In this document: positions 3,098-30,141 of the stretch, piece after piece
Layout of the letters: the number at the start of each line of letters is the position of its first letter
How positions within the stretch are numbered: position 1 is the stretch's first letter
Virus record (IMG/VR): IMGVR_UViG_3300028189_000044
Coordinates: 1 to 30,141 of that record
Strand: one strand, 5' to 3'
DNA: 30,141 nt
Source: a virus
Program-made: the position numbers and the translations under genes
Notes under the pieces: model-generated
Database searches by the model: none
Told to the model about the DNA's origin: nothing
What the model saw: only the letters and a program-made list of their open reading frames with translations

Positions 3098-3135
3098 CCC
3101 GGAGAGGGCAACCCGTTAAATTAACCCTCTTCGGG
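3098..3135 (+). repeat. Inverted repeat enclosing the first promoter-like motif
   Basis: CCCGGAGAGGG at 3098-3108 can pair with CCCTCTTCGGG at 3125-3135: eleven pairs with one G-U. The 16-base loop is exactly the first 16 bases of the repeated motif. In RNA this would be a hairpin at the 3' end of the upstream transcript, with no U-tract, so a processing site or 3' stabiliser is more likely than an intrinsic terminator. The other two motif copies do not have an equally strong stem. Confidence 0.6.
3109..3128 (+). promoter_or_regulatory. Candidate phage RNA polymerase promoter, copy 1
   Basis: The 20-mer CAACCCGTTAAATTAACCCT occurs here and, base for base, at 16745-16764; 17 of 20 bases recur at 29759-29778. 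All three lie in gaps without genes and ahead of + strand units; this copy is 32 bases before the SSB gene. A T7-type polymerase is encoded upstream, and such polymerases read conserved promoters of about 20 bases, so promoter identity is the simplest reading. The core is nearly palindromic, so direction is inferred from the downstream genes. Confidence 0.65.
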
Positions 3136-3160: not shown

Positions 3161-3784
3161 ATGATCCTTCACGATTGCGAAATCTGGTATCCGAAATTGA
3201 TGCCAGGACGTCCGAACGCAAAGTTCGACAAGAAGAATCCCACCTGGGAACTCCAGCTGCGTACTACCAGCAAGGAGAAGAAAAAGGAATGGGAAGCACT
3301 GAATCTCAATGTCAAGGCAGTTATCCCTGACGAAGATGGTGCAGACCCGTTTTATCGTGTGAACATCAAACGAAAGACCATCAAAGCCGATGGAACAGCT
3401 TCCAAAGAAGTTGAAGTTGTTGATGGTAACATGGACCCTGTCGACCCTGGCAGCATCGGGAACGGCTCCATCGGAAACATTCGAATCTTCCAATATCCAT
3501 ATGAGAGCGATGACGGTCCAGGTATCGCCTCAATGCTGATGGCAGTCCAGTTGACCACACACATTGTCTACAAGTCGGCCATTGATCCTGATGATCAATT
3601 TGGTGCCACTGAGACAAAAGTTATTACGCCACCGCCGGAGGAAGAAGAGACTCCTGAGACAACTCAGGCAGCGCCTTCAACGCCCTCTACTCCCGCTGCG
3701 CCTGGAACTCCGAGCTTGAACCCTCCAGGGACTCCAAGTACTCCTGAAGCAGGCTCAGAGATCGACGACGAAATCCCTTTCTAG
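3161..3784 (+). CDS. Single-stranded DNA-binding protein with SSB-type acidic tip
   Basis: A 207-residue protein that coats single-stranded DNA during replication and recombination. Residues 1 to about 150 carry the beta-rich, aromatic pattern of phage SSBs in the T7 gp2.5 position (LHDCEIWYPKL, WELQLRT, then F/Y-rich strands). Residues about 155-198 are a linker rich in P, S, T and E with repeated PSTP/PGTPS units. The last residues are EIDDEIPF, nearly the DDDIPF tip of bacterial SSB that recruits partner proteins. It follows the promoter-like site and has a GAGG ribosome element. The N-terminal family assignment rests on context and pattern; the tail is directly visible. Confidence 0.85.
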   Translation: MILHDCEIWYPKLMPGRPNAKFDKKNPTWELQLRTTSKEKKKEWEALNLNVKAVIPDEDGADPFYRVNIKRKTIKADGTASKEVEVVDGNMDPVDPGSIGNGSIGNIRIFQYPYESDDGPGIASMLMAVQLTTHIVYKSAIDPDDQFGATETKVITPPPEEEETPETTQAAPSTPSTPAAPGTPSLNPPGTPSTPEAGSEIDDEIPF

Positions 3785-6921: not shown

Positions 6922-7379
6922 TAATACCAAAGACGGCGAAGCCTCGGTCAAAATTCAATAACGGCCATTGGATGTTTGACGAGCAAATGGGTGATGGGAT
7001 GGGTTTTATCTATGTGATCCGTGATGATTACATGGGACGCTTCTACCTGGGCAAGAAATTGTTTAGGGGTCACGGTAAGCTCAATAAGGGTAAAGAATCG
7101 AACTGGAAGAAGTATACGTCATCCTCAAAACTCTTAGGTGAAATGTTCAAAGAGAGACCTCGTAGCCAGTTCAGCTTCATCGGCATCGAGCAATACCAAA
7201 CTAAAGGGACACTCTCTTACTCAGAGACGTGGTCCTTATGCCACGTAGAAGCGCCCACTAGTGACCTCTGGTACAACAGACTGATTGAGAAGGTTGCTTG
7301 GAATGTTAAGGAGAGTATCACTGACAGACATAAGGACCGACTTCGTCGAGCAATAGCAATGGAGACTTTCGATGGCTAA
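6918..7379 (+). CDS. SegE-like GIY-YIG domain endonuclease (putative)
   Basis: A 153-residue protein starting at the ATGA overlap with the exonuclease stop. The N-terminal half carries a GIY-YIG-like core: GFIYVIRDDYMGRFYLGKK, then ESNWKKYTSSSKLLGEMFKE, which matches the pattern I associate with the GIY-YIG domain of T4 SegE-type endonucleases (IGKKQFW...SDWKKYWSSSEELK). A glutamate that could be the metal ligand follows in YSETWSLCHVEAP. The C-terminal half is basic (ITDRHKDRLRRA). SegE in T4 is a free-standing homing endonuclease; here the gene is embedded in a tight replication operon where T7 places its Holliday-junction nuclease, so a housekeeping resolvase or branch-nuclease role is equally plausible. 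Confidence 0.7.
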   Translation: MIIPKTAKPRSKFNNGHWMFDEQMGDGMGFIYVIRDDYMGRFYLGKKLFRGHGKLNKGKESNWKKYTSSSKLLGEMFKERPRSQFSFIGIEQYQTKGTLSYSETWSLCHVEAPTSDLWYNRLIEKVAWNVKESITDRHKDRLRRAIAMETFDG

Positions 7380-12469: not shown

Positions 12470-12724
12470 ATGAGAGAGAAAATAAGGGGTGTCCTGAGGG
12501 ACATGCTACCTATCGAGACTGATCGGCCTATCCTCGATACTGACAATATTGAAGATGATCTAGGTGCTGACAGTCTGGATCGCGTTGAGATCATTATGGT
12601 ACTTGAGGAGACATTCGCTATCGTTATAGAGGACCTCCCTGCCAGCAAAATAATGACTGTCGCAGACTACGATTCTGTAGTCGAAGAAGCACTCAAGAAG
12701 AGCCCAACCAAGGAAAGCCAGTAG
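12470..12724 (+). CDS. acpP: Acyl carrier protein
   Basis: An 84-residue acidic four-helix protein with the phosphopantetheine site DDLGADSLDRVEI, modified at S35 (S36 in E. coli ACP), followed by the typical helix II (MVLEETFAIVIED) and PASKIMTVADYDSVVE helix III. Length, acidity and motif match the bacterial AcpP family closely. It starts after AAGGAG. In bacteria ACP carries fatty-acyl intermediates and touches several other enzymes; a phage copy could redirect host lipid synthesis, acylate a phage or toxin protein, or sequester the host holo-ACP synthase. No ketosynthase or acyltransferase is in the window. Confidence 0.93.
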   Translation: MREKIRGVLRDMLPIETDRPILDTDNIEDDLGADSLDRVEIIMVLEETFAIVIEDLPASKIMTVADYDSVVEEALKKSPTKESQ

Positions 12725-16744: not shown

Positions 16745-16764
16745 CAACCCGTTAAATTAACCCT
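16745..16764 (+). promoter_or_regulatory. Candidate phage RNA polymerase promoter, copy 2
   Basis: Identical in all 20 bases to the site at 3109. It lies 73 bases before the gene at 16838, in a gap of more than 260 bases without coding sequence. With the terminator at 17462 it brackets a single gene, so it would give a short abundant message. Confidence 0.65.
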
Positions 16765-16837: not shown

Positions 16838-17437
16838 ATGACCGACGAACTCAAACAAGTATACGCTGCTCCAGACGGAACCACTTTTGATACCAAAGCC
16901 GAAGCTCAGGATTACCTGCGCGGCCCGAAGATCAAAGAAGCTCTCATGACTGTCACCGACAACAATGAAGACCTGTCTGACTGGCTCGTTGCTAACCGGA
17001 ATGTCGTAGCCGGTGCCTTTGAAAGCGGCTTTATCCGCCGTATCACAAAGTCCGACCACAAGAAAATTGACGCCGCCTTCGCAGCTATGACTGCAAGTGG
17101 TGACAAAGCCTATGCATTCCTGGTCGAAAATCAGGAAAGCCTTGAACTGAAGTACAAGACAGTCAAGCGCATGGACGAAGACGAAAAGATGGCTGCCGCT
17201 CGTGTTGCCATTGCCGACGCTACTGATGACAACAACGAAGAACTGGCCAATTGGGTCGTTGAAAATCGTGAAGCTGTCATCGAAGCTTACAACGCCGGTA
17301 AAGTCAAGCGTACTGTTTCGCCGAGGGCTACTGAAGCCCTGGCTGCGTACCGTGAAAAGATGGCCAAAGAAAAGGCCGCTGCTGCCGGTGGTGAAGCTGC
17401 ACCCGAAGCATCTGCTGAAGCTACCGCTGCCGAGTAA
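16838..17437 (+). CDS. Acidic, alanine-rich protein with three internal repeats
   Basis: A 199-residue protein of unknown function. Three related helical units can be aligned: DLSDWLVANRNVVAGAFESG (from residue 45), KAYAFLVENQESLELKY (from 90) and ELANWVVENREAVIEAYNAG (from 134), each followed by basic residues such as FIRRI, TVKR and KVKR. The first and third units are both preceded by DNNE. The C-terminal 30 residues are an A/E/P-rich low-complexity tail. The gene stands alone between a promoter-like site and a strong terminator and has an AAGGGA ribosome site, which suggests high expression. Helical repeats with conserved basic ends could bind nucleic acid or form a scaffold, but this is inference. 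Confidence 0.8.
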   Translation: MTDELKQVYAAPDGTTFDTKAEAQDYLRGPKIKEALMTVTDNNEDLSDWLVANRNVVAGAFESGFIRRITKSDHKKIDAAFAAMTASGDKAYAFLVENQESLELKYKTVKRMDEDEKMAAARVAIADATDDNNEELANWVVENREAVIEAYNAGKVKRTVSPRATEALAAYREKMAKEKAAAAGGEAAPEASAEATAAE

Positions 17438-25310: not shown

Positions 25311-25939
25311 CTTAACCCCCTCGTGGAAACACAGGTTTGAGGTGGTACCTGTTACTATCTCTATAAGTGCCTAACAATCCATTTCCGAAAGGGATTGGAC
25401 GGTGTGGAACGGAAAGGCAGCAACGGGATTGGAATGGAGAGCAGTGTGATGTTACGGATCGGTTCGTATTGTATTGGCAGTAACGGTATTGGCAAGGGAG
25501 GGTAACGTAATGAAAGGGCTAGGCGAGTTATGGTGGGTAGTGGCAGTAATGGTATTGGATTGTATTGCAATGTTAGGGCTTGTTTAGGCCTGGTGCGGCA
25601 GTAACGGAAGTGGTAAAGGAGAGTTTGGTAATGTTTCGGCGTGGCGAGTCGCGCAAATGGAATGGCAGTAATGGAATTGGACGGGAGGGTAGTGTAGCGT
25701 ATAGTAGGGTTAGGGCTAGGTTTGTATCGGTTAGGCAGTAATGGCAAGGGAATGGATTGTATCGTCGAGGTGCGTCCTGGTTTGTAGCGTTGAGGCAGTA
25801 ATGGAAATGGAAGGTATTGTAGTGCAACGTCTGGGTTCGGTGCGTACTGGTGCGTATCGGCAGGCTTGGTTTAAGAACTGTTATCGTGAGCAGGCAGTAT
25901 AAAGACAACGCTCGCATAAAAACTGAAGGAACTAAGAAA
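25311..25939 (+). repeat. G-skewed iteron-like repeat region, candidate replication origin
   Basis: A 630-base gap without a credible gene. The core GGCAGTAAYGG (one copy GGCAGCAACGG) starts at 25416, 25476, 25542, 25597, 25664, 25734 and 25794; partial copies follow at 25859 and 25893. Intervals between full copies are 55-70 bases. Each full copy is followed by related purine text (G-x-A-x-T-GG...). The + strand is strongly biased: 25501-25560 has 24 G and 4 C. A GAAA-capped hairpin with seven pairs and one mismatch (CCATTTCC/GGGATTGG) lies at about 25379-25398. Regular short repeats in a gene-free, skewed tract fit an initiator-binding or R-loop origin. This is inferred, not proven. Confidence 0.75.
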
Positions 25940-29625: not shown

Positions 29626-29690
29626 ATAACCTCAGAACAACTCTTATGCCTTCGGGTGTAGGGGTTGTTCTGGGGTTATATATTTTTTTT
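29626..29690 (+). terminator. Very strong intrinsic terminator, UUCG-capped
   Basis: A continuous stem of 23 or more pairs from about 29628 to 29677 (several G-U pairs, AT extensions on the outside) closes on a TTCG tetraloop at 29651-29654 and is followed by eight T residues at 29683-29690. It ends the long + strand block of small genes and insulates the promoter-like site 70 bases further on. Confidence 0.95.
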
Positions 29691-29758: not shown

Positions 29759-29778
29759 TAACTCGTTAAATTAACCCA
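29759..29778 (+). promoter_or_regulatory. Candidate phage RNA polymerase promoter, copy 3
   Basis: TAACTCGTTAAATTAACCCA matches the 20-mer at 3109 and 16745 in 17 positions, with the core CGTTAAATTAACCC unchanged. It follows the terminator at 29626 and opens a leader that runs out of the window, so it probably drives the next gene block. Confidence 0.6.
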
Positions 29779-30141
29779 AGAGGCTTCGAGAGAAGACGTC
29801 GAAGGGGTTCCTCTTTTAATGTCCTCCTGAACGCTTTAGTAGTTGGAATTGAGAAGAGTAAACCTTAAAGCTTGGCTGTGCATCGTTGAGCACTAGCGAA
29901 CGCGGTCTCTTTCTTATAACCTCCGCTTACGCGAGACACCATATCAGTTATTGTTAAGAGCAATTTCATCGTCGTGTAAGGAAAGAGGATCTTTCTAAAG
30001 AGAGCAGCTACTACGACTGTTCATACTCAGGCTCACGCCAAATGATATCTAAAGAGTCCTTCTTAAGAGAACTTTCTTCTTGTGTATTGAGAAAGTTCTC
30101 TTAAATGAGACTCTCTGAAGAGTCCTTTAAATAGCTGAGAT
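29779..30141 (+). other. Long structured leader without genes
   Basis: About 360 bases hold no gene I can support on either strand. Several hairpins are seen: AAGAGG-CTTCGA with TCGAAG...CCTCTT at 29778-29815, GTGC/GCAC at about 29878-29893, GAAAGA/TCTTTC at about 29981-29995, a perfect 15-pair stem (30063-30077 with 30090-30104), and GACTCT/AGAGTC at 30109-30124. The word AAGAGTCCTT occurs at 30052 and again at 30118, so GACTCT at 30109 can pair with either copy. This would be an unusually long and folded 5' leader for a phage message, or a separate RNA. Confidence 0.5.

Follow-up and report, generated by a model that had tools for sequence, protein, structure and literature searches.

What reads a 20-base sequence that stands three times, nearly unchanged, in a viral genome fragment? 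The fragment, a 30,141-nt virus record with one-directional gene order (the whole stretch analyzed here, referred to as the window), also encodes an RNA polymerase of its own, and an earlier note made from the letters alone had taken the repeated sequence for the promoter class of that enzyme. We followed up this proposal in the window, in related phage records, and in the sequence of the polymerase.

A 19-bp box stands between genes in the window

The 20-mer CAACCCGTTAAATTAACCCT occurs exactly at 3109-3128 and 16745-16764 and with 3 mismatches at 29759-29778, always on the + strand, and a search of both strands of the window with up to 3 mismatches retrieved no further copy. None appeared in 100 shuffles of the window (chance expectation, 0.00), so that the triplication described in the earlier note (two exact copies and one with 17 of 20 bases) holds, though the box proper is 19 bp long. 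A logo of 46 sites, from which two overlapping weak matches (G003 48566 and G010 40772) were left out, delimits a conserved unit with sharp edges, AnCCCGTT(AAA)TTAACCCT. It reads AnCCCGTT-AAA-TTAACCC-T, with GTT, TTA, and CCC near-invariant and the central AAA weaker. Given these sharp edges, the first C of the 20-mer falls outside the unit. The weight-matrix search that the earlier note had suggested was run with a 19-bp matrix on the window, where it returned the same three sites and none on the − strand at a score of at least 5, and on related records (see below). As the earlier note had seen, each of the three copies falls in a gap between called genes; the gene calls come from a simple caller built for this analysis. 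The features concerned are as follows:

3110-3128, + strand: promoter box copy 1, upstream of the block of ssDNA-binding protein and DNA polymerase; predicted start within TTAA before CCC
3161-3784, + strand: Gp2.5-like ssDNA-binding protein (SSB; phrog_112, E value 2e-9), first gene past copy 1
16746-16764, + strand: promoter box copy 2, ahead of the conserved gene F18
16838-17437, + strand: conserved 199-aa gene of family F18, without Pfam or PHROG match; motif at its head in 8 of 12 records
29760-29778, + strand: promoter box copy 3 (AACTCGTTAAATTAACCCA), with the record end 363 nt beyond and no called gene between

The window has further features of its own. A 25-nt inverted repeat (30053-30114) lies right at the record end, within the gene-free stretch of ∼360 nt past copy 3. 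Seven degenerate G-rich repeats of ∼52 nt each, mostly 60 to 66 nt apart (25388-25840), fall in the 2-kb block with the strongest GC skew of the window. An acyl-carrier-protein-like gene (12470-12724; PF00550, PHROG 5934) adjoins an ATP-dependent DNA ligase gene, and a SegE-like GIY-YIG endonuclease gene (6972-7379) adjoins an exonuclease gene.

The same genome encodes a T7-type polymerase with an elongated specificity loop

The proposed reader of the motif is encoded upstream of copy 1:

31-2265, + strand: single-subunit (T7-type) RNA polymerase, 744 aa (PF00940, E value 2.4e-65; T7 RNA polymerase chains, E value 5.6e-42)
1834-1980, + strand: specificity-loop region, residues 602 to 650, placed by alignment, by the secondary structure of the model, and by the way it co-varies with the motif's left half

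Motif and cognate T7-type polymerase are thus found in one genome, and the catalytic residues of the enzyme are intact, being kept in the alignment at T7 positions D537, K631, Y639, and D812. Its AlphaFold2 (AF2) model has a pLDDT of 89 and a TM score of 0.75 to the T7 RNA polymerase-promoter complex 1cez. The specificity loop is modeled as a long β-hairpin with strands at residues 605 to 615 and 632 to 645, and the alignment shows this region to exceed its counterparts in T7 and DSS3_VP1 by ∼12 residues. At T7 position 748, we looked for the D of T3-like specificity and did not see it; among the loops listed, the residue in this group is W, Y, H, N, or R.

The best cultured match of the polymerase is that of phages DSS3_PM1 and DSS3_VP1, at 33.7% identity, followed by the listed T7-like matches at ∼27 to 30%; the close kinship to the T7 and SP6 groups that marks the Autographiviridae is not seen. 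The families of RNA polymerase, DNA polymerase, terminase, SSB, scaffold, and capsid are common to DSS3_VP1 (Naomviridae), even though the RNA polymerases share no more than this 33.7%.

The polymerase gene was present in all 12 records (G000 to G011) compared below; insertions interrupt it in some relatives, for which the alignment covers only pieces. Group I introns (RF00028, 72 to 80 bits) were found at L067 2625-2888, L071 7737-7970 (− strand), L173 1876-2106, and L178 1733-1981, and at least in G006 such an intron adjoins the part of the polymerase gene that encodes the catalytic MTLPYGG. In G009, G010, and G011, where the gene is also split by insertions, the stretches scanned gave no Rfam match.

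The box recurs at fixed places in phages with this polymerase

Among 2.9 million viral contigs, the bare 20-mer matched seven besides the window, and all seven carry a gene of this polymerase family; a search of 84,980 prokaryote genomes gave no exact match to the 20-mer. The core with up to 2 mismatches was present in each of the eight records searched, with 4 to 6 copies on one strand in each of six records of 68 to 80 kb, 3 in the window, and 1 in a fragment of 13.7 kb, the one opposite-strand exception being a 2-mismatch core match.

We then pooled the motif contigs with contigs fetched through the polymerase, which gave the 12 records G000 to G011. They hold 47 strong matches on the coding strand and none on the other. 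Although the sequence is 78 to 93% coding, 45 of these matches are wholly intergenic, with 1 partly and 1 wholly inside a called gene, so that the many intragenic copies named in the earlier note as a reason to drop a promoter role are not seen. Every called gene in these records and in the DSS3 phages lies on the strand of the box. At a score of 18, neither G011 nor a further record, G012, had a match; G011 has a 2-mismatch site in the expected place, while a motif of its own type, sought by eye at the SSB site of G012, was not recognized. One recurrent site lies one or two genes past the polymerase, before the Gp2.5-like ssDNA-binding gene and DNA polymerase. Further recurrent sites precede F18 (a gene of ∼200 aa) and F28-terminase, separate the large minor-head gene from scaffold/capsid, and follow the tail genes. 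With copies before terminase and scaffold/capsid in these relatives, the expectation of the earlier note that more would be found ahead of structural genes has come true. A directional box of ∼20 bp with multiple coding-strand copies heading gene blocks is what T7-type promoters would present.

As an independent set, we took the best 80 of 250 loci found with a polymerase profile (1.38 Mb; 5 of them already among the matrix contigs). At a score of at least 12, these 80 loci gave 110 forward matches and 1 reverse match, compared to 5 in a reversed-sequence control. Leaving aside three loci without an SSB gene, the motif lay up to 310 nt upstream of SSB in 64 of 77 loci of this best-80 set, and in 62 of these 64 it stood 22 to 56 nt before the start. 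It was missing from this site in the other 13 (L108, L122, L126, L128, L129, L134, L135, L139, L169, L170, L171, L172, and L176), several of which carry it elsewhere.

A degenerate pattern with a free center was checked in 25 records, the longer ones of the scan list not already analyzed. All 12 records in which the center has at least two A's (AAA, GAA, AGA, or AAC) belong to this phage group by their polymerase, capsid, or DNA polymerase, versus none of the 13 with other centers, under a two-A rule that was set post hoc and with one of the 13 (G027) having a center also present in G008. Tandem boxes 47 to 64 bp apart occur in G001 (23735/23799), G004 (26498/26545), and G007 (27179/27227), and two overlapping ones 13 bp apart in G010 (40768/40781). 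This signal is spread through a large group of related phages, most of them uncultured, and the box is kept in genomes of 37 to 63% GC.

The left half of the box co-varies with the specificity loop

Co-variation was assessed on 46 non-redundant polymerases, namely, those from loci that have a site score of at least 7 and whose polymerase frame is open, together with G000, G001, and G011; the set excludes loci in which the motif is not recognizable or the polymerase frame is interrupted. In this set, the distance between specificity loops correlated with the distance between left halves (Mantel r of 0.52; partial r, given the rest of the protein, of 0.42; both P values of ∼0.001), and loop distance showed no correlation with the right half (r of 0.07, P value of 0.26; partial r of 0.00). 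When the polymerase was scanned in 119 sliding windows, the four best correlated with the left half all overlapped the loop. Two divergent sequences, G011 and L146, carry much of this signal: after removal of both, the windows covering residue 625 rank 12th or lower of 119. Accordingly, the co-variation of upstream half and loop expected of T7-type promoters is present, but weaker without these two. Where polymerases have unusual loops, the left half of the box is altered and TTAACCC is kept, as with TGCCCTGAAAATTAACCCT (L146) and AGACCGATCTATTAACCCT (L130). Promoter recognition has been placed at positions −17 to −5 in two papers (PMC11617373 and PMC13029058), the latter of which places the motif bound by the specificity loop at −12 to −5.

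Leaders downstream of the box fall into two nearly exclusive classes

The CCC of the box opens a perfectly paired stem of 4 bp or more, closed by a loop of 3 to 8 nt, at 36 of 116 sites, compared to 3.6 in shuffled sequences (standard deviation, 1.9; maximum, 9 of 200); at other offsets, a hairpin starts at 1 to 10 of the 116. The two arms change together (CCCT/AGGG, CCCTCA/TGAGGG, CCCA/TGGG, and CCCG/CGGG), and as the search itself demanded perfect pairing, these arms have to be judged against the shuffled sequences. The CCC hairpins look as if transcripts begin just upstream.

A C-rich run follows shortly downstream at 33 of the 116 sites, versus 3.1 expected (maximum, 8) and none in an upstream control. 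This element, approximately GnCGCCCCTCC, lies ∼8 to 18 nt past the box and is followed by A/T-rich noncoding DNA, as in terminase and early-region sites at G003 48391, G010 40629, and L129 6666. Both features were found together at a single site and neither at 48 of the 116, including the three copies of the window. Sites of the C-rich class head terminase and the early region, and those of the hairpin class are mostly SSB and F18 sites, with some capsid sites. That the C-rich class might serve as a replication origin is a guess, suggested by the primary origin in the T3 record, which lies just downstream of promoter phi1.05.

The earlier note had described strong terminators at copies 2 and 3; this is right for copy 3, with the element listed below, and at copy 2 there is a stable upstream structure (z score of −3.2), but a terminator scan found no intrinsic terminator there. 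The note had also pointed to an 11-bp inverted repeat with the near-palindromic core of copy 1 exactly in its loop, and this repeat exists:

29630-29675, + strand: intrinsic-terminator-like stem-loop of 20 pairs with a T-rich tail, upstream of copy 3
3098-3135, + strand: 11-bp inverted repeat (arms 3098-3108 and 3125-3135; z score of −2.5), specific to copy 1, which lies largely in its loop

It is not a general feature, however, and we rejected an enclosing repeat as part of the signal: among the 116 sites, a motif-enclosing stem of at least 7 was found at 13 (shuffled mean, 5.2; maximum, 12 in 100) and one of at least 6 at 22, versus 18.8 in shuffles.

Weighing the explanations

We consider it very likely that the phage's own T7-type polymerase uses the motif as its promoter, as the earlier note had proposed; the proposal is supported by the co-occurrence of box and polymerase on seven of seven contigs and by the co-variation of left half and loop. 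Several observations count against it, namely, that the TTAACCC to the right of the center is not the usual G start, that the core is near-palindromic and the reversed motif resembles K11 promoters too, that 13 of 77 loci have no motif before SSB, that the loop loses its top rank in the co-variation once G011 and L146 are both taken out, and that G011 and G012 give no match at a score of 18.

The near-palindrome could instead point to an operator, in which GTTAAnTTAAC binds a dimer of a phage-encoded repressor or activator that controls nearby host-type promoters. GTTAA.TTAAC is indeed a perfect inverted repeat around one base, the sites lie between genes, and some come as the tandem pairs described above. 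The two half-sites, however, are kept unequally, in that the GTTAA side varies (GTTGA, GTTAG, and GTTTA) and TTAACCC is near-invariant; the orientation is fixed, at 110 to 1 in the best 80 of 250 polymerase loci; the left half follows the specificity loop of the polymerase; and no σ70-like promoter is found near copies 2 and 3, so that we regard an operator as improbable. The same lack of −35/−10 pairs at these two copies speaks against a promoter of the host RNA polymerase, or a host-factor site, used by the phage. Its position at the heads of gene blocks would suit such a site, but the conservation of the box across the GC range given above, in phages that probably have very different hosts, its specificity to phages of this polymerase group, and its absence as a 20-mer from the prokaryote genomes searched make this explanation very improbable.

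Equally small is the chance that the box acts at the RNA level, as a leader or processing element in read-through transcripts. The hairpins at 36 of 116 sites and the 11-bp stem that copy 1 can form are what one would look for in such an element, but the box sequence is kept to the left of the hairpin start and at hairpin-free sites, the excess of hairpin starts is confined to CCC, and the left half follows a loop with which the polymerase reads DNA. Slightest of all is the chance that the same box fires in the opposite direction. Its reverse complement, AGGGTTAATTTAACGGGTT, resembles the AGGG...GGG of K11, with AGGG ∼13 to 14 nt before GGG as in K11 promoters; yet all called genes of G000 to G011 and of the DSS3 phages lie on the box strand, the leader hairpin and the 22- to 56-nt spacing to SSB lie downstream of TTAACCC, and the class that DSS3_VP1 itself has points along the gene direction. 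We rejected a reverse-oriented promoter on account of this gene direction, the leader hairpins, and the SSB spacing.

A working model for the proposed promoter

From the box, its strand, position, and synteny, the co-occurrence with the polymerase, the loop co-variation, and the hairpin excess, we infer how binding, start site, and hairpins could fit together if the box is the polymerase promoter. The left half, AnCCCGTT, would be read by the elongated specificity hairpin, the A/T center would be melted, and synthesis would start within TTAA just before the invariant CCC. Two start registers would fit, one at the T just after CGTTAAA (the DSS3 register) and one at the A two bases on. We prefer the latter, since it would give a purine start and would center the left half on the positions that the loop reads; most probably, synthesis would start at the first A of AACCC, because the upstream AACCC would then lie at −13 to −9, as in T3 promoters. 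The copies would split the one-directional genome into middle and late blocks (replication, F18, terminase, and scaffold/capsid), and at many sites the 5′ end of the transcript would fold into a compact hairpin, with CCC as its 5′ arm, which would probably stabilize the mRNA.

More tentatively, and with somewhat less than an even chance in our view, this may be an undescribed promoter system of T7-type polymerases that does without a G start. Transcription would begin at A (or T) before the invariant CCC, which would belong to the promoter and at the same time form the 5′ arm of a transcript-capping hairpin. The two nearly exclusive leader classes, hairpins at SSB, F18, and some capsid sites and a C-rich box 8 to 18 nt downstream at terminase and early-region sites, would belong to the same system, the latter possibly serving also as replication origins or timing signals.

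For a wide family of polymerases from uncultured phages, the box would be the promoter that has been missing. Promoter-polymerase pairs without the T7 core would be useful as orthogonal transcription tools, and with natural variants of loop and promoter available by the dozen at one conserved site, the evolution of promoter specificity would become testable in this enzyme family. A 2026 genome-mining study mentions metagenomic polymerases for which no promoter-like sequence could be found (PMC13029058).

Comparison with known promoter systems

Literature searches on the motif, Noahvirus, Naomviridae, DSS3_VP1, and DSS3_PM1 returned, at the level of search results, no paper on this promoter. 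The cultured relatives DSS3_VP1 and DSS3_PM1 (Naomviridae, Noahvirus) have no weight-matrix match to the window-type box, and in them we found a class of their own, TAGGGTGCGTTAAAG. With up to 3 mismatches, it has 14 (DSS3_VP1) and 15 (DSS3_PM1) matches on the coding strand versus 2 and 1 on the other, and 1 and 0 in a reversed control. This class has the T7-type core (T at −4, A at −3, A at −1, and G at +1), and the distance from its TAGG to the start G equals that in annotated K11 promoters and in the SP6 match. It shares with the window the one-directional gene order, a box before SSB, and CGTTAAA, but has TAGG on the left instead of AACC and GAGGGG on the right instead of TTAACCC, a shorter loop of another type, and some copies inside genes. 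Related polymerases with different loops and different boxes at the SSB site are what a promoter role of the box predicts.

A hairpin near the promoter also recalls phage N4, whose virion RNA polymerase uses a hairpin promoter and recognizes a hairpin upstream of the start. In the phages studied here, by contrast, the hairpins lie downstream and differ in sequence, and most sites have none.

The promoters of T7, T3, K11, and SP6 (Autographiviridae) are the closest in kind, with a directional box of ∼20 bp whose several copies head gene blocks, a cognate single-subunit polymerase, and a division into an upstream specificity half and a downstream half for melting and initiation. The T3 promoters that we read contain TTAACCC and have AACCC at −13 to −9, the place it takes here in the preferred register. 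The earlier note was right, however, in calling the motif unlike the T7 consensus: the 19-bp box AnCCCGTTAAATTAACCCT lacks the conserved core CACTATAG or anything close to it, no G stands at any plausible start, and CGTTAAA gives T, A, and A at −4, −3, and −1 only if +1 is the T. The specificity hairpin is ∼12 residues longer, and the phages, of ∼70 to 80 kb, have another gene order. The core CACTATAG defines the T7/T3/SP6/K11 subset and not all promoters of single-subunit polymerases. The box is a putative new promoter class within a known kind of system, set apart by an unusual initiation end and by its leader hairpins.
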